From a virus: a stretch of 32,263 bases of DNA. Of the stretch, positions 22,424 to 29,224 are shown piece after piece (the first letter of the stretch is position 1; each line of letters opens with the position of its first letter). The notes beneath the pieces were generated by a model, which ran no database searches, was not told where the DNA came from, and saw only the letters and a program-made list of their open reading frames with translations. The stretch is taken from IMG/VR virus record IMGVR_UViG_3300009433_000024, positions 1 through 32,263 of that record. One strand, given 5' to 3'. A program made the position numbers and the translations under genes.

Positions 22424-23095
22424 ATGGCCCGGTATTATCCTAAATCTCAATTACAAATTAATCTGTTCACAAATGGAGGGGAATATATTATAGAACAAAC
22501 AGGTCAAAGTTACCAAGGAGCATACTACAAAACATCTACAAATGAATATTTTGCAGGGAATACTCCTGAAAGTGGAGATAATAGAAAATTAATACCTACT
22601 GAATTTTTTGAAGGAAATATCTTAGGAGTAGACTCACCCCTAGAATCTAGTAATAAATTATTATATGTAGAGGGATATGATGGAGATTTACCTTTTGTTA
22701 CCCCTAATAGTTCTATTAATAATGGTTTATATAATTTATTAACATTAGGCCCCTCATTACCTCCAGTTAAATCAACACCTTTATTTTTATCCCCTTTACC
22801 AACATCAAATGATTATAAAATTGGTGAATTTCAAAGATATTTTTTAAAAAGAACAAATAACTTACTATACCTTGAAATTGATTTTTCTCAATTCCAACAA
22901 TATGTAAATCAAGATCCCCTAGTTACCTTTAATTTGTATAATCCAATTTCCTTACCTTGGAACCTAACAGGGGATGAAAAACAAGTATACCAATCAAATA
23001 AAAATATAGTTGAACTAGTTGAAAGAGAAAATAATTGGTATGGGTTTACTTCATACTTTCAAAAAGATTTTTCTAAATATTATTTGGCTTCATAA
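22424..23095 (+). CDS. Unrecognised structural protein at the end of the baseplate block
   Basis: The 223-residue protein has no motif I can name. It is rich in Tyr, Asn, Leu and Pro, lacks cysteine, and has no signal peptide or membrane segment. Segments such as 'QLQINLFTNGGEYIIEQTGQ', 'SYQGAYYKTSTNEYFAGNTP' and 'IGEFQRYFLKRTNNLLYLEI' suggest a beta-rich virion protein. The 'YQGAYYKTSTNEYFAGNTP' style recalls small tail or baseplate-associated proteins that describe an N-terminal attachment domain, but this is weak. It starts 1 nt after the hub stop codon and is the last gene before the replication block. A late-type box overlaps the end of the hub gene just upstream. Confidence 0.55.
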   Translation: MARYYPKSQLQINLFTNGGEYIIEQTGQSYQGAYYKTSTNEYFAGNTPESGDNRKLIPTEFFEGNILGVDSPLESSNKLLYVEGYDGDLPFVTPNSSINNGLYNLLTLGPSLPPVKSTPLFLSPLPTSNDYKIGEFQRYFLKRTNNLLYLEIDFSQFQQYVNQDPLVTFNLYNPISLPWNLTGDEKQVYQSNKNIVELVERENNWYGFTSYFQKDFSKYYLAS

Positions 23096-23119: not shown

Positions 23120-24388
23120 ATGTTTTGGTTAATAGAAGCAAAAAGACAATTAAACGAGTTTAATAAAAAGGGTTATAAGGAAGCTTATATAGAAGTTATA
23201 CCATATTCTTACAAAACTCACCCTGCAATTACTAATGTTAGTTTAGTTTATATTAGACCATTTGAAGCAACTAAAGGATATATGTTAACTATAAACCATA
23301 GTGAAGCTATGGCGTTAAACAACGAGTATATTGAAGAATTAATTAGTAAATTTGATAAGTTATACGTTTGGGATAAGAAGGAATTTATTCATTTTTACTG
23401 GAGAAGTAATGAAGTAATTGATTTATCTTTAGCAGTTCCTAATTATGAAAAAGAAACAACTAAAACCCATAGGTTATTTAACAATTACAAAAGATACAAA
23501 GATAAATTAGATATTAATAGAATTATTCCTATAGTTAAACATTATGAAGCTTGTGAAAAAAATTACAACAATTTAAAACAGTACAAAAATGAACCCGTCA
23601 ACAAATTTTACAACCAATCAGTACCATTGGTATTCAAATTTATCGAAAAAAATGGTATACGAGTGGATTCCCAAATCTTCGAAGACTACTTCGACCATAA
23701 TAGCAAGGATAGAGTCTACACACAATATAATCTCAGAACAACAACAACAAGACCCTCCAACAGATTTGGAGGAGTAAATTTTGCAGCATTAAATAAAGAA
23801 AATGGATGTAGGAAAGCTTTTATACCAGATAATGATAGATTTGTTGAAATTGATATTTCTGCTTATCATCCTAGTCTTGCCGCTCATCTTGTTGATTATA
23901 AATTTAATACTGATGACATTCATAAGTCCTTTGCTGAAATGTATGGAGTGGATTATAAAAAATCTAAAGAGCTTACTTTCAAACAGCTTTATGGCGGTGT
24001 TTTTAAGCAGTACCGCCATTTGGAGTATTTTCAAAAAATACAAAAATATGTAGATGATTTATGGGAAAAATTTAATACTGATGGTTATGTTGAATGTCTT
24101 ATTTCTAAACATAGATTTGAAAAAGATAAATTAGATAACATGAATCCACAAAAACTATTTAATTATCTCCTTCAAAATTTGGAGACGTCACTTAATGTTC
24201 TTATGTTAAAACATATAATAAAAAGAATAATATTTAAAAAAACTAAATTAGTATTATACACATATGATGCTTTTTTATTTGATTTAGCAGATGATGAAGA
24301 ATATTTAATAAAAGATATAATAAAAATATTTAATAGATATAATTGCAAAGTAAAATTAAAATATGGAACAAACTACGATTTTGAATAA
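23120..24388 (+). CDS. Compact family-A DNA polymerase with degenerate exonuclease part and no visible thumb
   Basis: The 422-residue protein has the family-A palm/fingers motifs. They are 'TTTTRPSNRFGGVNF' with R211 and N220 (like R668/N675 of E. coli Pol I), 'EIDISAYHPSLAAHL' with catalytic D245 (motif A), 'DDIH', 'KSKELTFKQLYGG' with K283, F287 and Y291 (motif B), and 'VLYTYDAFLFDL' with D383 (motif C). The Pol I steric-gate Glu is replaced by H250, and the motif C His-Asp-Glu is Tyr-Asp-Ala. Residues 1-165 resemble a 3'-5' exonuclease fold, but the first metal motif reads YIEV rather than DxE, so proofreading is doubtful. From 'FIEKNGIRVD' to motif R211 there are only about 30 residues against about 120 in Pol I, so the thumb seems missing. 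T4 uses a family-B polymerase, so this is a replacement. It overlaps the next ORF by 26 nt. Confidence 0.8.
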   Translation: MFWLIEAKRQLNEFNKKGYKEAYIEVIPYSYKTHPAITNVSLVYIRPFEATKGYMLTINHSEAMALNNEYIEELISKFDKLYVWDKKEFIHFYWRSNEVIDLSLAVPNYEKETTKTHRLFNNYKRYKDKLDINRIIPIVKHYEACEKNYNNLKQYKNEPVNKFYNQSVPLVFKFIEKNGIRVDSQIFEDYFDHNSKDRVYTQYNLRTTTTRPSNRFGGVNFAALNKENGCRKAFIPDNDRFVEIDISAYHPSLAAHLVDYKFNTDDIHKSFAEMYGVDYKKSKELTFKQLYGGVFKQYRHLEYFQKIQKYVDDLWEKFNTDGYVECLISKHRFEKDKLDNMNPQKLFNYLLQNLETSLNVLMLKHIIKRIIFKKTKLVLYTYDAFLFDLADDEEYLIKDIIKIFNRYNCKVKLKYGTNYDFE

Positions 24389-24833
24389 CATAGATAGTAT
24401 TTATAGGGTGAACTACGATTTTGAAAATCCCCAAAACATTAAAGACTTGAATAACAAATTATTTTGCACTTTTACTACATTAGAGGGGATGGAAGAGCTT
24501 ATTAAAAATCTTACTTCCCAATACAATATTATGTATAACAAAATCTTTGCTTTATATATTAAAAGCAATGATGAATATGTTATAACATATAATGTTGACC
24601 AAGGTAATGTTACTTCAATTCCAGAAAACACCATTTTAGTCCATAGAAAAAAAGAAACAAATACGTTATACACCATAAATTCACTGAATGAACTTATTAA
24701 AAATCTAAACGGTGGGGTTGTCGATACAAAATTCCCTATAGATTGGCAACACTACAAAAATTGTATTTTACTGACTCAACATGGGGAGTTAAAGCAGTTA
24801 AATACCAAGATTCACAAAATAATTGAGCTTTAG
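24363..24833 (+). CDS. Unknown protein overlapping the polymerase gene
   Basis: The 156-residue protein is not recognised. It is predicted soluble, with a helical N-terminal half ('LEGMEELIKNLTSQYNIMYN') and a beta-rich second half ('EYVITYNVDQGNVTSIPENT', 'ILVHRKKETNTLYTINS') ending 'NTKIHKIIEL'. Its start lies 26 nt inside the polymerase gene, and residues 17-21 repeat the last five residues of the polymerase (NYDFE) through a 15-bp direct repeat. The tight coupling to the polymerase and the following SSB promoter suggest a replication role, for example a polymerase accessory or translational regulator. This is inference only. A TATTTATA stretch at 24398-24405 inside the gene matches the late box but is not placed before a start codon. 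Confidence 0.6.
   Translation: MEQTTILNNIDSIYRVNYDFENPQNIKDLNNKLFCTFTTLEGMEELIKNLTSQYNIMYNKIFALYIKSNDEYVITYNVDQGNVTSIPENTILVHRKKETNTLYTINSLNELIKNLNGGVVDTKFPIDWQHYKNCILLTQHGELKQLNTKIHKIIEL
24371..24425 (+). repeat. 15-bp direct repeat at the polymerase/unknown-gene overlap
   Basis: Bases 24371-24385 and 24411-24425 are identical (AACTACGATTTTGAA), with a 40-nt period. The first copy is the end of the polymerase gene and the second is inside the overlapping gene. Both are read in frames giving NYDFE. Confidence 0.85.
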
Positions 24834-24889: not shown

Positions 24890-25729
24890 ATGGATTTAAA
24901 CGCTATTAAGTCGAGATTGAACACCTTAAATAAACAGTCCAACTCGCAAAACAAAGAAAAAAAGGATTACACCTTAATTTATTGGAAACCGAAACAAGAA
25001 GGAAAATATCAAATTAGATTTGTTCCTTCTCAACATAAAGTCACAAATGACCCATTTCATGAGGTTATGATGCATTATGGAGTAGGAAAATTTCCTATTA
25101 TGGCTCTAACTAATTGGGGAGAAGATGACCCAATAGTTGATTTTACAGCTAAACTTAGAAAAACAAGTGACCCTGATAACTGGAGATTAGCAAAAAAATT
25201 ATCACCTAAAATGAGAGTATTTGCTCCTGTAATTGTTAGAGGTGAAGAAGATAAAGGAGTTAGACTATTTGAATTTAGTAAAACACTTTATATGGAATTG
25301 TTATCAATTGCTGATGATGAAGATTATGGTGACTTTACAGATGTAGCAGCTGGATTTGATTTTGTAGTTAACGCTACTAAAGTTGTAGACAGACCGGGTT
25401 TTTCATTAAGTTTAAGACCTAAACCAAAACAAACACCATTAAATGAAGATGCTAAAGTTGCTAAAGAATGGTTAACTAATCAACCTTCACTATTAGAAGA
25501 AAGATTTAAATACACTTATGATAAATTAAAAGAGGAATTACAAAAATTCATTTCAGAAGAAGAAGATGAAAATGAAGATAGCATCACATCTGAACCACCT
25601 GTAAGCTTTGATAATGATAGTAAATCAGATAATAATTTTACAATTAAAGACCAAGGAAAAAAATCAATATCTAAATCAACAGAATTTGATACAATGTTTA
25701 AGGATGATGATGATGATTTACCATTTTAA
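24890..25729 (+). CDS. 32: Single-stranded DNA-binding protein (T4 gp32-like), zinc-less
   Basis: The 279-residue protein has the gp32 layout. A short N-terminal self-interaction segment ('IKSRLNTLNKQSNSQNKEKK') is followed by the core opening 'EGKYQIRFVPSQ' (about 38-48), a beta-rich OB-fold core to about residue 190 with 'VRLFEFSKTLYMELLSIADD' and 'FDFVVNATKVVDRPGFSLSL', then a helical segment and an acidic, Ser/Asp-rich tail. Two things differ from T4 gp32. There is no cysteine at all, so the structural zinc site of T4 gp32 is absent. The last residues read KDDDDDLPF, like the tip of bacterial SSB proteins (E. coli ends DDDIPF). It would coat replication and recombination ssDNA and recruit partners through the tail. 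It lies next to uvsX, as expected for a recombination partner. Confidence 0.85.
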   Translation: MDLNAIKSRLNTLNKQSNSQNKEKKDYTLIYWKPKQEGKYQIRFVPSQHKVTNDPFHEVMMHYGVGKFPIMALTNWGEDDPIVDFTAKLRKTSDPDNWRLAKKLSPKMRVFAPVIVRGEEDKGVRLFEFSKTLYMELLSIADDEDYGDFTDVAAGFDFVVNATKVVDRPGFSLSLRPKPKQTPLNEDAKVAKEWLTNQPSLLEERFKYTYDKLKEELQKFISEEEDENEDSITSEPPVSFDNDSKSDNNFTIKDQGKKSISKSTEFDTMFKDDDDDLPF

Positions 25730-25739
25730 ATAAAATTAT

Positions 25740-26813
25740 ATGCCAAGAAAAAAATCACTACAGGAGGCAGTCTCCAAAGAAATAAAATCAAAATTTGACT
25801 TAAGTTCCTTTAAAGAAAAAAAGGGACTTAAGCAAAATGTAAAGTTTAAAGAACAAGAATGGATTCCACTTTCTAAAGCATTCCAAGACGTTACATCAAT
25901 ACCCGGCATACCAATGGGACATATTGTTTTACTTAGAGGTCATTCAGATACAGGTAAAACAACTGCTTTATTAGAAGCAGCAGTTTCAGCACAAAAAAGA
26001 AAAATATTGCCTGTTTTTATTATTACTGAAATGAAATGGAATTGGGAACATGCTCAACAAATGGGTCTCCAAGTAGATGAAGTTGTTGATCAAGATACAG
26101 GTGAAATTGTAAATTATGAAGGTAATTTTATTTATGTTGATAGAGAAAGTATAAATACAATTGAGGATGTAGCTGTATTCATTTTAGATTTAATTGATGA
26201 ACAAAAAAGAGGTAATTTACCATATGATTTATTATTTTTATGGGATTCAATAGGATCAGTACCTTGTGAAATGTCCGTTAAATCAAATAAAAACAATAAT
26301 GAATGGAATGCAGGTGCAATGTCAACCCAATTTGGAAATAATGTTAATCAAAGAATTACATTATCTAGAAAGGAATCATCTAAACATACAAATACTTTAG
26401 TTTGTATTAATAAAGTATGGACAGCAAAAGCAGAATCACCTATGGGTAAACCAAAATTAATGAATAAGGGTGGATTCGCTATGTGGTTTGATTCAACATT
26501 TGTAGTTACATTTGGTAATATTTCAAATGCCGGAACATCTAAAATTAAAGCAATTAAAGATGGTAAGCAAGTAGAATTTGCTAAACGTGTTAATTTACAA
26601 ATTGATAAAAATCATATTAATGGAGTTACTACAAGAGGTAGAATAGTTATGACACCCCATGGGTTTATTAATGATACTGATAAGGAACTTAAAGAATATA
26701 AAACAGATAATGCTGCCGCTTGGAAAAGTATCTTAGGAGGTACTGATTTCCAAATTGTTGAAGAAGATCATGAGTATAATGATATAACTTCATACACCGA
26801 AGAACCAGAATAG
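25740..26813 (+). CDS. uvsX: UvsX, RecA-like recombinase
   Basis: The 357-residue protein is a RecA/UvsX strand-exchange ATPase. Walker A is GHSDTGKT (67-74), the catalytic Glu is probably E97 in 'FIITEMKW', and Walker B is 'DLLFLWDSIGS' (about 163-173). 'MSTQFGNNVNQRITLSRKES' and 'TLVCINKVWTAKAESPMGKP' cover the DNA-binding loop region, and 'GGFAMWFDSTFVVTFG' follows. The length is close to T4 UvsX (391). The C-terminus is acidic ('VEEDHEYNDITSYTEEPE'), as in other UvsX proteins. It forms filaments on ssDNA and supports recombination-dependent replication together with the adjacent gp32-like protein. No UvsY-type loader is recognised in the window. Confidence 0.93.
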   Translation: MPRKKSLQEAVSKEIKSKFDLSSFKEKKGLKQNVKFKEQEWIPLSKAFQDVTSIPGIPMGHIVLLRGHSDTGKTTALLEAAVSAQKRKILPVFIITEMKWNWEHAQQMGLQVDEVVDQDTGEIVNYEGNFIYVDRESINTIEDVAVFILDLIDEQKRGNLPYDLLFLWDSIGSVPCEMSVKSNKNNNEWNAGAMSTQFGNNVNQRITLSRKESSKHTNTLVCINKVWTAKAESPMGKPKLMNKGGFAMWFDSTFVVTFGNISNAGTSKIKAIKDGKQVEFAKRVNLQIDKNHINGVTTRGRIVMTPHGFINDTDKELKEYKTDNAAAWKSILGGTDFQIVEEDHEYNDITSYTEEPE

Positions 26814-26817
26814 AATT

Positions 26818-27849
26818 ATGAGAAAAAAAGAACTACTAGCAATCTTGAATGATACTCAAGATAATGATACAGGTATGCCTAAAGGGGATCGAATATTATT
26901 AATTGATGGGTTAAATTTGTTTTTTAGAAACTTTGCCATGTTACAAATGGTTAACCCAAAAGGAGTACATATTGGTGGATTAGGTGGTTTTTTTAGATCT
27001 TTAGGAGCATTAATTAGACAAATCCAACCTCATCAAGTATATGTAGTATTTGATGGGGCGGGTTCTTCAATGAATAGAAAAAATCTTGTCCCTGAATATA
27101 AATCAGGTAGAGAAACTCAACGAATTACTAATTGGGAGGTATTTGATAATTTGGATGAAGAGCATGATTCTAAAATAGACCAAATAGTAAGAATTATACA
27201 ATATTTAAAAACCCTACCTGTTAAAACAGTATCAATAGATAAAGTAGAAGCAGATGATATCATCGCGTATTTAAGTCATAAAGCGTTAAAACAACAAGGT
27301 GATAAGGCTTTTATAATATCTAGTGATAAGGATTTTTTACAATTGGTAAACGACAGAGTGGTTGTTTATAGACCTATAGAAAAGAAATTTTATACAAATG
27401 AATCTTTTAAGGAGAAATATAATATGCCTTCTGAAAATTTTATTATTTATAAAACACTTATGGGTGATAGTTCTGATAAAATAAAAGGAATAAAAGGTTT
27501 AGGTGAAAAGAAATTATTTAAACTATTCCCAGAATTGAGTAAATGGGAAGTTTCATGGAAAGATATTTTAGATATTTGTGAAAGAAAATACAAAGACCAT
27601 ATTATATATGCTAGGATAATTCAAGAAGTAAATGAATTAGAAAAGAATTACAAAATAATGGATTTAAGTAATCCAATGATGAGTAAAGATGATAAAGAAT
27701 ATTTAGATGGGTTTGTAAACTCCAAAGAATTAACTTATAATCCGAAGTTGTTTACAGACTTATATAATGAAGATGAATTAGGGGGTATGATTAGAAATTT
27801 AGATTTCTGGTTAAGAGAAAATTTTTTAAAATTAGTTTCAAAAAAATAA
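26818..27849 (+). CDS. 5'-3' exonuclease / flap endonuclease (T4 RNase H-like)
   Basis: The 343-residue protein is a FEN-type nuclease. Metal-binding motifs appear in order: 'ILLIDGLNLFFRNF' with D30, 'VYVVFDGAGSS' with D79, a basic arch 'EYKSGRETQR', 'KVEADDIIAYL' with E144, D146 and D147, 'ISSDKDFLQLV' with D170 and D172, and a helix-three-turn-helix 'GDSSDKIKGIKGLGEKK' with D217 and D220. It removes RNA primers and flaps from lagging-strand fragments. In bacteria this activity is part of Pol I, so it complements the compact polymerase encoded upstream, which lacks such a domain. T4 Rnh is 305 residues. The first 22 residues precede the fold; the gene starts 4 nt after uvsX, and ATG 26818 is the only start close to that stop. 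Confidence 0.9.
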   Translation: MRKKELLAILNDTQDNDTGMPKGDRILLIDGLNLFFRNFAMLQMVNPKGVHIGGLGGFFRSLGALIRQIQPHQVYVVFDGAGSSMNRKNLVPEYKSGRETQRITNWEVFDNLDEEHDSKIDQIVRIIQYLKTLPVKTVSIDKVEADDIIAYLSHKALKQQGDKAFIISSDKDFLQLVNDRVVVYRPIEKKFYTNESFKEKYNMPSENFIIYKTLMGDSSDKIKGIKGLGEKKLFKLFPELSKWEVSWKDILDICERKYKDHIIYARIIQEVNELEKNYKIMDLSNPMMSKDDKEYLDGFVNSKELTYNPKLFTDLYNEDELGGMIRNLDFWLRENFLKLVSKK

Positions 27850-27853
27850 AGTT

Positions 27854-29224
27854 ATGACATTAAAATCAATAGAAGAATATGGTCCGGGATTTCAAATTAA
27901 AGTTTTATCTTCACTTTTAACCCATAAAGAGTTTTTAACAAACATTTATGATATTTTAAATGAAGATGATTTTAGTAATGAGGCGCATAAATGGATTATA
28001 AAAGAAATATTAAAGTATTATGATAAGTATCATACAACACCTTCACTTGATATTTTAAAAGTAGAAGTTAAAAAAATTGAAAATGAAGTTTTACAATTAT
28101 CAATTAAAGAACAACTTAGAGAAGCATATATCACTAGCGATGATGATTTAAAATATGTACAAGAAGAATTCTCAGCATTTTGTAAAAACCAACAATTAAA
28201 ACAAGCATTATTATCTTCAGTTGATTTATTAAAAGCAGGAGATTATGATTCAATTAAATTTATGATTGAAAATGCTTTAAAAGCAGGACAAGATAAAAAT
28301 TTAGGACATGAATATAATTTAGACATTGAAACCCGATATAGGGAAAATAATAGAAAATGTATCCCAACACCATGGAAAAGATTAAATGACTTGCTTCAAG
28401 GTGGATTAGGAGGTGGGGATTTCGGTCTAGTATTTGGTAATCCAGGAGGAGGTAAATCTTGGACATTAGTTGCTTTAGGAGGTCATGCTGTTAGATTAGG
28501 ATATAATGTTTTACATTACACTTTAGAATTAGGTGAGGATTATGTTGGATTAAGATATGATGCCTTTTTTACTCAAATTCCAGTAGACCACTTAACTAAA
28601 AATAAAGAAAAAGTTGAAAGTATAGTTCCTCAAATTCCTGGAAAATTAGTAATAAAAGAATTTCCAACTGGAAGGGCTAGTATTAACACAATAGAATCTC
28701 ATATTAGAAAATGTACAGACCATGATATCAAGCCCGATTTAATTTTAATAGATTATGTTGATTTACTTTCTTCTAAAAGAAAGAATGTTGATCGTAAGTA
28801 TGAAATTGATGATATTTATACAAGTACTAAAGGATTAGCTAAAGAATTAAATTTACCAATTTGGTCAGTTTCTCAAGTAAATCGCGCAGGTGCAAAAGAT
28901 GATGTTATTGAAGGTGATAAAGCAGCAGGATCGTATGATAAAATAATGATTACTGATTTTTGTTTATCACTATCAAGAAAAGCAAAAGATAAAGTAAATG
29001 GAACAGGAAGGTTTCATGTTATGAAAAATAGATATGGTATGGATGGATTAACATTTGGAGTAAAAGCAGACACATCAACAGGTCATTTTGAAGTTCATGA
29101 CTATGATGAAGATGATGAATTAGTAACAAATCGTCAATCAACCCATCCAGGTGAAATAGATAATTGGGATAAAGACCATTTATCACATCAAGACGTTACG
29201 AAGAATTTTTTTATTAACAGTTAA
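27854..29224 (+). CDS. 41: Replicative DNA helicase, DnaB type (T4 gp41-like)
   Basis: The 456-residue protein has a helical N-terminal domain (about 1-145, 'QIKVLSSLLTHKEFLTNIYD') and a RecA-like motor. Walker A is GNPGGGKS (195-202), preceded by 'PTPWKRLNDLLQGGLGGGDF'. 'VLHYTLELGEDYVGLRYDAF' carries the Glu of motif 1a. Walker B is 'PDLILIDYVDLLSS' with D300, followed by 'LPIWSVSQVNRAG' (motif 3) and 'FHVMKNRYGMDGLTFGVKAD' with the arginine-finger region. The size is close to T4 gp41 (475). It forms the hexamer unwinding DNA at the fork. A primase (gp61-like) is not visible in the window. The gene starts 4 nt after the exonuclease gene. Confidence 0.93.
   Translation: MTLKSIEEYGPGFQIKVLSSLLTHKEFLTNIYDILNEDDFSNEAHKWIIKEILKYYDKYHTTPSLDILKVEVKKIENEVLQLSIKEQLREAYITSDDDLKYVQEEFSAFCKNQQLKQALLSSVDLLKAGDYDSIKFMIENALKAGQDKNLGHEYNLDIETRYRENNRKCIPTPWKRLNDLLQGGLGGGDFGLVFGNPGGGKSWTLVALGGHAVRLGYNVLHYTLELGEDYVGLRYDAFFTQIPVDHLTKNKEKVESIVPQIPGKLVIKEFPTGRASINTIESHIRKCTDHDIKPDLILIDYVDLLSSKRKNVDRKYEIDDIYTSTKGLAKELNLPIWSVSQVNRAGAKDDVIEGDKAAGSYDKIMITDFCLSLSRKAKDKVNGTGRFHVMKNRYGMDGLTFGVKADTSTGHFEVHDYDEDDELVTNRQSTHPGEIDNWDKDHLSHQDVTKNFFINS

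Follow-up and report, generated by a model that had tools for sequence, protein, structure and literature searches.

An extra family-A DNA polymerase (PolA), named divPolA1, has been described in 14 phages, Flavobacterium phage immuto included, where it stands alongside a regular DNA polymerase of family A, B or C; its thumb is truncated, its exonuclease is inactivated and its palm is conserved (Yutin et al. 2024, Virol J 21:200, PMC11348598). Those authors read the surrounding gene cassette as a hint that divPolA1 has a role in replication, and found the function of the regular polymerases 'less obvious' (PMC11348598). The main text of that paper contains neither 'steric' nor 'histidine', and its sections 13-14 make no mention of the small partner gene described below. 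A literature search for the name divPolA1 returned this paper and its preprint and nothing else, and one on thumbless phage polymerases gave, in the excerpts it returned, Abi reverse transcriptases instead. Neither 'thumb' nor 'steric' appears in the excerpts of two virioplankton PolA papers (PMC6302109, PMC9069017), and the Far-T4 paper, in its corresponding excerpt, lists a DNA polymerase whose family is not named (PMC4360716).

We analyzed a 32,263-base phage fragment that makes up one IMG/VR virus record, called the window throughout, of which 7.9 kb remains 3′ of the polymerase gene. The protein encoded at 23120-24388 is 38.9% identical to immuto gp001 over residues 1-418 (99% of the query, E 3e-79), and we regard it as practically certain that this gene is divPolA1, the extra family-A polymerase of T4-like phages. 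Its features are as follows.

23120..24388, + strand: divPolA1, a 422-aa family-A DNA polymerase without a thumb (Pfam, immuto gp001 match, conservation, AlphaFold2 model, fold match, hhalign)
23120..23509, + strand: N-terminal exonuclease-fold region, residues ~1-130, ExoI acidic DxE pair missing (model, fold match, motif count; boundary approximate)
23669..23749, + strand: short linker, residues 184-210, at the place of the Pol I thumb (conservation, AlphaFold2 model, PolA alignment)
23750..23752, + strand: R211, at the Pol I R668 position (phmmer, conservation)
23852..23854, + strand: D245, motif A metal ligand, Pol I D705 (conservation, hhalign)
23867..23869, + strand: H250, steric-gate position, Pol I E710; His in 258/258 relatives (conservation, hhalign)
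23966..23992, + strand: motif B K283..F287..Y291, Pol I K758, F762 and Y766 (conservation, hhalign)
24266..24268, + strand: D383, motif C metal ligand, Pol I D882; flanked by Y382/A384 instead of H881/E883 (conservation, hhalign)

This gene, described from 14 genomes in the sections of Yutin et al. that treat it, has hundreds of metagenomic relatives and is common in metagenomic phage contigs: three IMG/VR profile scans for the polymerase confirmed at least 575, at least 596 and at least 596 copies, and two for the partner at least 592 and at least 585, the sets overlapping in both cases. Named genomes with the gene are four immuto records, Microcystis phage Mel-JY01 and a 484-kb uncultured phage; Staphylococcus phage CF5 gave a weak match (E 0.01, 46% covered), and Rhodothermus phage RM378 we take to be a possible split-PolA relative. 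A pattern scan of one genome each for 84,980 cellular species found 10 loci, all in entries titled MAGs or bins, which are probably phage contigs.

Fold and active site of the polymerase

The match to the Pfam family is faint. Against PF00476 (DNA_pol_A) the window polymerase scores 28.4 bits, below the gathering cut-off of 34.3 (E 1e-6), and 44 of 98 scanned relatives match at E ≤0.001. When a profile of 98 relatives was compared with three canonical PolAs by hhalign, palm and fingers aligned over 230 columns with a probability of 97 (E 1e-10). The AlphaFold2 model, built from a 98-row alignment (pLDDT 96.1, pTM 0.93), matches Klenow-type structures over its whole length in Foldseek (best E 4e-18), and VIA-align 2 superposes residues 1-422 on Pol I large fragments with a best Z of 26.2 (rmsd 3.6, 387 aligned). 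By these three methods the protein has a Klenow-like fold with motifs A, B and C. This confirms the compact family-A polymerase that a first-pass annotation, made from the sequence alone, had proposed at these coordinates, together with the palm and finger residues it had listed (R211, D245, K283, F287, Y291 and D383).

In Pol I, the thumb confers processivity. Here, the distance from E176 (the E of 'IEKNG') to R211 is only 35 residues, and it is 23-43 residues in all 253 relative rows that have both columns, versus 127 in E. coli Pol I (E541, position 218 of the Klenow stretch, to R668). Because the model places a single 8-residue helix (184-191) between strands 180-182 and 213-216, no replacement thumb is built from other residues in the predicted structure of the polymerase alone, and the earlier description of the enzyme as thumbless stands. 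The N-terminal exonuclease fold is retained, as the VIA-align 2 match spans residues 1-422. Within it, 218 of 226 full-length rows have no ExoI D-x-E in residues 15-45 (8 do), whereas all three canonical PolAs carry one among their first 60 residues; this agrees with the defect noticed earlier in the first exonuclease motif. Acidic residues are frequent at columns 85 (Asp in 156 rows) and 143 (Glu in 236 rows); the residue-level mapping of the exonuclease covers ExoI only. The window polymerase lacks, therefore, both the thumb and the ExoI acids of a proofreading Pol I-type enzyme.

Some neighboring and variant reading frames were seen along the way. A 223-aa ORF at 22424-23095, directly 5′ of the polymerase, has no convincing Pfam or PHROG match. 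The L010 copy (1532-2797, 53% identical to the window protein) has an in-frame TAG after 310 codons past which the match runs on; it may reflect a sequencing error or a special use of the stop codon, and it excluded this copy from the full-length alignments. In the distant relatives L246, L274 and L241 the open frame is 345 aa, giving a polymerase ~80 residues shorter that perhaps lacks a portion of the N-terminal exonuclease fold or is broken upstream.

The active site was compared across 267 unique relatives, with rows gapped at a column set aside for that column. R211, placed at the Pol I R668 motif by phmmer, is kept in 254/254 rows, D245 in 258/258, K283 in 257/258 (the exception being an X), Y291 in 258/258 and D383 in 262/263; hhalign equates D245, H250, K283, F287, Y291 and D383 with E. 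coli Pol I D705, E710, K758, F762, Y766 and D882. Other positions have changed: that of Pol I R754 is mostly Tyr (206/258), that of H881 is Tyr in 261/263 and that of E883 is Ser or Ala in 261/263. Even so, across more than 250 sequences there is little or no variation at the two catalytic aspartates, the Lys and Tyr of motif B, or Q352, and to judge from these residues the active site looks competent. Comparison of the window gene with two close relatives gives dN/dS of 0.080/0.42 and 0.086/0.73 (that is, 0.12-0.19; the L009 pair, which is not codon-aligned, was left out), so the gene is under purifying selection and is not decaying. These observations bear on the idea that the divPolA1 gene is decaying, or that its product is an accessory subunit without catalytic activity. 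The sub-threshold Pfam score and the lost ExoI acids would suit it, but the conserved metal-binding Asp pair, motif B residues and Q352, and the low dN/dS, make it very improbable.

The most distinctive substitution is at the steric gate. Pol I Glu710 selects against ribonucleotides; its counterpart, which the first-pass annotation had read as His250, is His in every one of 258 relatives. In immuto and in record G008 the full-size PolAs keep the gate Glu, keep the D-x-E motif and have a long thumb region, so the three losses are specific to divPolA1. An invariant His where the sugar-selecting Glu should be could mean that divPolA1 makes or extends RNA, as a primase- or RNA polymerase-like enzyme would. 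PolA folds have been co-opted as RNA polymerases in T7-like phages, and Yutin et al., in the sections concerned, raise this option for divPolA2, not for divPolA1 (PMC11348598). Of 11 records searched for a Toprim primase, 7 gave no match, complete Mel-JY01 included. We nevertheless consider an RNA role quite improbable: a separate Toprim primase is found in the other 4 records (immuto, LR756508, G007 and G008), and two of them match DNAG_N as well; Y291 and F287, the counterparts of Pol I Y766 and F762, are retained; and the AlphaFold2 model has no extra N-terminal domain of the RNA-polymerase kind.

The partner gene and the replication cassette

The polymerase gene is followed in the window by a partner gene, four replication genes and then, after the helicase, two ribonucleotide reductase subunits.

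24363..24833, + strand: partner protein, 156 aa, 26-base overlap with the polymerase gene, no trusted family (linkage counts, conservation, profile and fold searches)
24890..25729, + strand: gp32-like single-strand DNA binding protein (SSB), PF08804 (Pfam, PHROG, cassette profiles)
25740..26813, + strand: UvsX/RecA-like recombinase (Pfam, PHROG, cassette profiles)
26818..27849, + strand: 5′-3′ exonuclease, Pol I N-terminal/FEN type, PF02739 (Pfam, PHROG, cassette profiles)
27854..29224, + strand: DnaB/gp41-type replicative helicase (Pfam, PHROG, cassette profiles)

Linkage between polymerase and partner was counted from both sides. In 340 loci, a set that may hold the same contig more than once, there are 342 polymerase ORFs: in 312 cases the partner follows within 4 kb, in 3 at 4.2-4.9 kb and in 27 not at all; 25 of these 27 loci run out within 2.3 kb of the gene, and in the other two, L264 and L240, no partner is detectable despite ~10 kb of room. 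When only unique loci with 7 kb or more downstream are counted, the partner is there in 111 of 113. Starting from the partner instead, only L147 of 80 loci is without the polymerase, its partner starting at base 2 of the contig, and a second search added 77 new loci, 68 with the polymerase and 9 without it, each of the 9 having at most 2.5 kb upstream. The partner is a near-obligate companion of divPolA1, never found apart from it where the contig left room, in locus sets picked by similarity to window queries, from which distant solo copies could escape. The proposal that the overlapping gene encodes a partner is, then, borne out by gene linkage. Overlap itself is variable: the partner open frame (stop to stop) starts before the polymerase end in 54 of the 111 loci and within the next 200 bases in 11, and the remainder lie further away, up to 4.9 kb. 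A polymerase-partner fusion was sought among the ORFs of the loci and none was found.

The partner is itself highly conserved, with a dN/dS of 0.06-0.08 and a core motif H94-R-K-K97..N100..Y103..N106..N109..W128. Residues F37, N77, H94, N100, Y103, N106, N109 and W128 are invariant in 257 sequences, and R95, K96 and K97 are kept in 253-255 of them. No trusted match came from Pfam or PHROGs, each searched with 68 members, nor from the sequences and folds of the PDB. The best single matches were to SusE (3 of 68 members, E 1.5e-4), Cap4_nuclease (1 member, E 3.8e-4) and phrog_22857 (1 member, E 2.4e-4), and no family was matched by more than 5 of the 68. Fold matches to viral Rep proteins are weak (Foldseek E no better than 0.1), as are those to the origin-binding domains of polyomavirus T antigens (Z 6.3-6.7), and we rely on neither; the sole significant BFVD match is an uncharacterized phage protein (E 5e-13). 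In T4, regA adjoins gp43. We rejected T4 RegA as the identity of the partner, as hhalign against five RegA sequences gave a probability of 0.2 over 9 columns; a distant homology is possible.

In the 113 unique loci the SSB and the 5′-3′ exonuclease are present in 113 each, the helicase in 111 and UvsX in 61, and where present the genes keep a constant order: partner, SSB, (UvsX), exonuclease, helicase. The partner, SSB and exonuclease of immuto are gp002, gp004 and gp006. Because the UvsX profile came from the window's own gene and some loci hold a more distant recombinase, 61 is probably a floor; Mel-JY01, for example, has a recombinase annotated at this place.

Regular polymerases in related records

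To understand what divPolA1 accompanies, we searched 44 distinct records with the gene (a selection from the longer contigs among the matches listed, plus immuto, Mel-JY01 and LR756508) for regular polymerases, using PF00136 for family B (PolB) and PF00476 for full-size PolA. PolB is present in 23 records, full-size PolA in 4 (immuto gp199, G008, G038 and G039), both in none and neither in 17. Among the 25 records of at least 70 kb, 21 have a regular polymerase (17 PolB, 4 PolA) and G032, G035, G036 and G037 do not. The regular polymerase starts 11-38 kb downstream of divPolA1 (median 20 kb) in the 25 of 27 records that could be measured; G033 and G038 were left out, as the count would run across contig ends. 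All 17 records that show neither polymerase end 0.8-18.1 kb downstream of divPolA1, so contig truncation accounts for most or all of the absences, even if 7 of the 25 measured distances are below 18.3 kb. By the same measure, a second polymerase belonging to the window would fall outside the fragment, with 7.9 kb after the gene versus 11-38 kb elsewhere.

The four long exceptions (77-137 kb) deserve comment. G036 is 137 kb and ends 18.1 kb downstream; its 19 ORFs of at least 500 aa contain no family A, B or C polymerase by Pfam. A family-C polymerase has been reported for some divPolA1 genomes (Yutin et al., PMC11348598). By motif, none was found among ORFs of at least 500 aa in G032, G035, G036 and G037, and by Pfam none in the 6 of 16 such ORFs scanned in G032 and the 2 of 13 in G035. 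The absence may be real in G036 or G037.

The regular replicase brings its own accessory proteins. G003 and G004, whose divPolA1 is 84% identical to that of the window, have a PolB, a sliding clamp and a clamp loader. Specifically, in G003 a 577-aa PolB piece contains the exonuclease domain PF03104, the second PolB piece is followed by a 244-aa ORF similar to a phage processivity factor (phrog_223, E 6e-6), and the clamp loader lies ~3 kb beyond this clamp ORF (phrog_168, E 1e-75). The counterpart ORFs of G007, G014 and Mel-JY01 have no phrog_223 match and are 40, 43 and 29% identical to the G003 clamp. A profile built from these four, which match it by construction, finds a clamp in 21 of the 23 PolB records (not G033 or G041), in 0 of the 4 full-size-PolA records and in 0 of the 4 long records with neither polymerase. 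Only strong loader matches (E 1e-49 or better) were counted, because the loader family also matches in all 14 cellular control genomes; these occur in 14 of 15 PolB records tested, the exception being G025, whose contig stops 143 bases past the clamp, and in neither of the 2 full-size-PolA records tested. The regular replicase is therefore usually a PolB with clamp and loader, and otherwise a PolA beside which no clamp was detected. divPolA1 stays beside either replicase, also where no such clamp is found, and its cassette is retained with PolB and with PolA alike.

Two features of these regions were noted in passing. PolB is broken into two ORFs, the break falling between motifs B and C, in L033 (439-2172 and 2743 onward; G003 30-33 kb) and in G004; in G003 two small ORFs lie between the pieces, the second SET-like by eye. 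PolB frames of 559-639 aa in G009, G011, G012, G025, G040 and G041 suggest that the split recurs. Downstream of their regular polymerase, four of four records (G007, G014, G003 and G008; L448-L451) encode a GroEL-type chaperonin, and so does immuto (37.9-42.2 kb); a chaperonin of this type near the regular polymerase was noted by Yutin et al. (PMC11348598).

These results change the functional picture. The first-pass annotation had placed divPolA1 in the position of T4 gp43 as the replicative enzyme, and this part of it fails: 27 of the 44 related records (23 PolB, 4 full-size PolA) carry a regular polymerase, and in the close relatives G003 and G004 a second replicative polymerase comes complete with clamp and loader. 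It could still have been right on function if divPolA1 worked at the fork and the regular PolB or PolA were the accessory. It is divPolA1, not the regular polymerase, that sits in the SSB-(UvsX)-exonuclease-helicase cassette, a point made by Yutin et al. (PMC11348598), and some long records show no other polymerase, though all of them stop within 18.1 kb downstream. Against this, the G003 PolB has an exonuclease domain of its own, clamp and loader accompany PolB in the proportions given above, and divPolA1 is without thumb and ExoI acids; we judge a fork role unlikely.

Proposed role and comparison with known systems

We favor, with our judgment evenly balanced, a reading in which divPolA1 is an accessory gap-filling and primer-replacing polymerase, its predicted activity being one part of a 'Pol I in pieces'. 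In this scheme PolB, usually with its clamp, or full-size PolA would copy the phage genome, and divPolA1, with the 5′-3′ exonuclease and the SSB of the same operon, would close short gaps and put DNA in the place of RNA primers, either behind the fork or in recombination intermediates. Working without thumb and proofreading, it would span only a few nucleotides, and the small conserved partner, in a physical contact that we infer, would hold it on the primer-template end. The resemblance to the synthesis half of a dismantled Pol I lies in the missing thumb and ExoI acids, the linkage to a 5′-3′ exonuclease and an SSB, and the retention of divPolA1 where no clamp is found. Several points weigh against gap filling. 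A role in recombination, in translesion synthesis or at the fork would suit the cassette equally well; 17 of 44 records, including the four of 77-137 kb, show no PolA or PolB beside divPolA1; and L264 and L240 have the room for a partner yet no detectable one. In addition, gp43 itself probably serves to mature Okazaki fragments in T4, so the need for a further gap-filling enzyme is not obvious.

A stronger form of this scheme would make divPolA1 and its partner an obligate two-subunit polymerase, in which the 130-156 aa partner replaces the thumb in trans and the invariant His permits work across RNA-DNA primer junctions. The pair would then be a portable Okazaki or primer-processing module, constant while the replicase alternates between PolB, which mostly comes with a clamp, and PolA, beside which none was found. 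We regard this version as doubtful. A translesion or repair polymerase that tolerates damaged or modified bases is also unlikely: missing ExoI acids and thumb suit a low-fidelity, distributive enzyme, and immuto is annotated with 7-deazaguanine DNA-modification genes, but divPolA1 is constant within a helicase/SSB/5′-3′ exonuclease cassette and does not lie in a variable region.

Whichever role holds, the family offers several openings. The thumbless core and its partner make it testable what a family-A polymerase needs a thumb for, the invariant His makes testable how sugar is selected without a steric-gate glutamate, and the switching between PolB and full-size PolA beside a divPolA1 cassette that stays fixed is a natural experiment on replisome swapping.

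Compared with known systems, the window polymerase is closest to divPolA1 of immuto (gp001), with 39% identity over 99% of the length; the two have in common the cassette, the truncated thumb, the dead exonuclease site and the palm residues, both are extra to a regular polymerase, and on the published description no defining difference separates them. What is new beyond the sections of Yutin et al. that treat the family is the hundreds of relatives, the invariant His gate, the near-obligate partner, the clamp near PolB and the constancy of the cassette beside PolB or PolA (PMC11348598). Likened by description only, divPolA2 of barbaviruses (Yutin et al. 2024) is another extra PolA that lacks a homologous thumb and stands beside PolB; unlike divPolA1, it has an unrelated N-terminal globular domain and a variable neighborhood (PMC11348598). 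T4 gp43, of family B, is like divPolA1 a DNA polymerase of T4-like phages, from a different family. With E. coli Pol I the window polymerase shares the fold and the palm and finger motifs; Klenow has a thumb, proofreading acids and Glu710, whereas the window polymerase has no thumb, no ExoI DxE and His250 at the gate.
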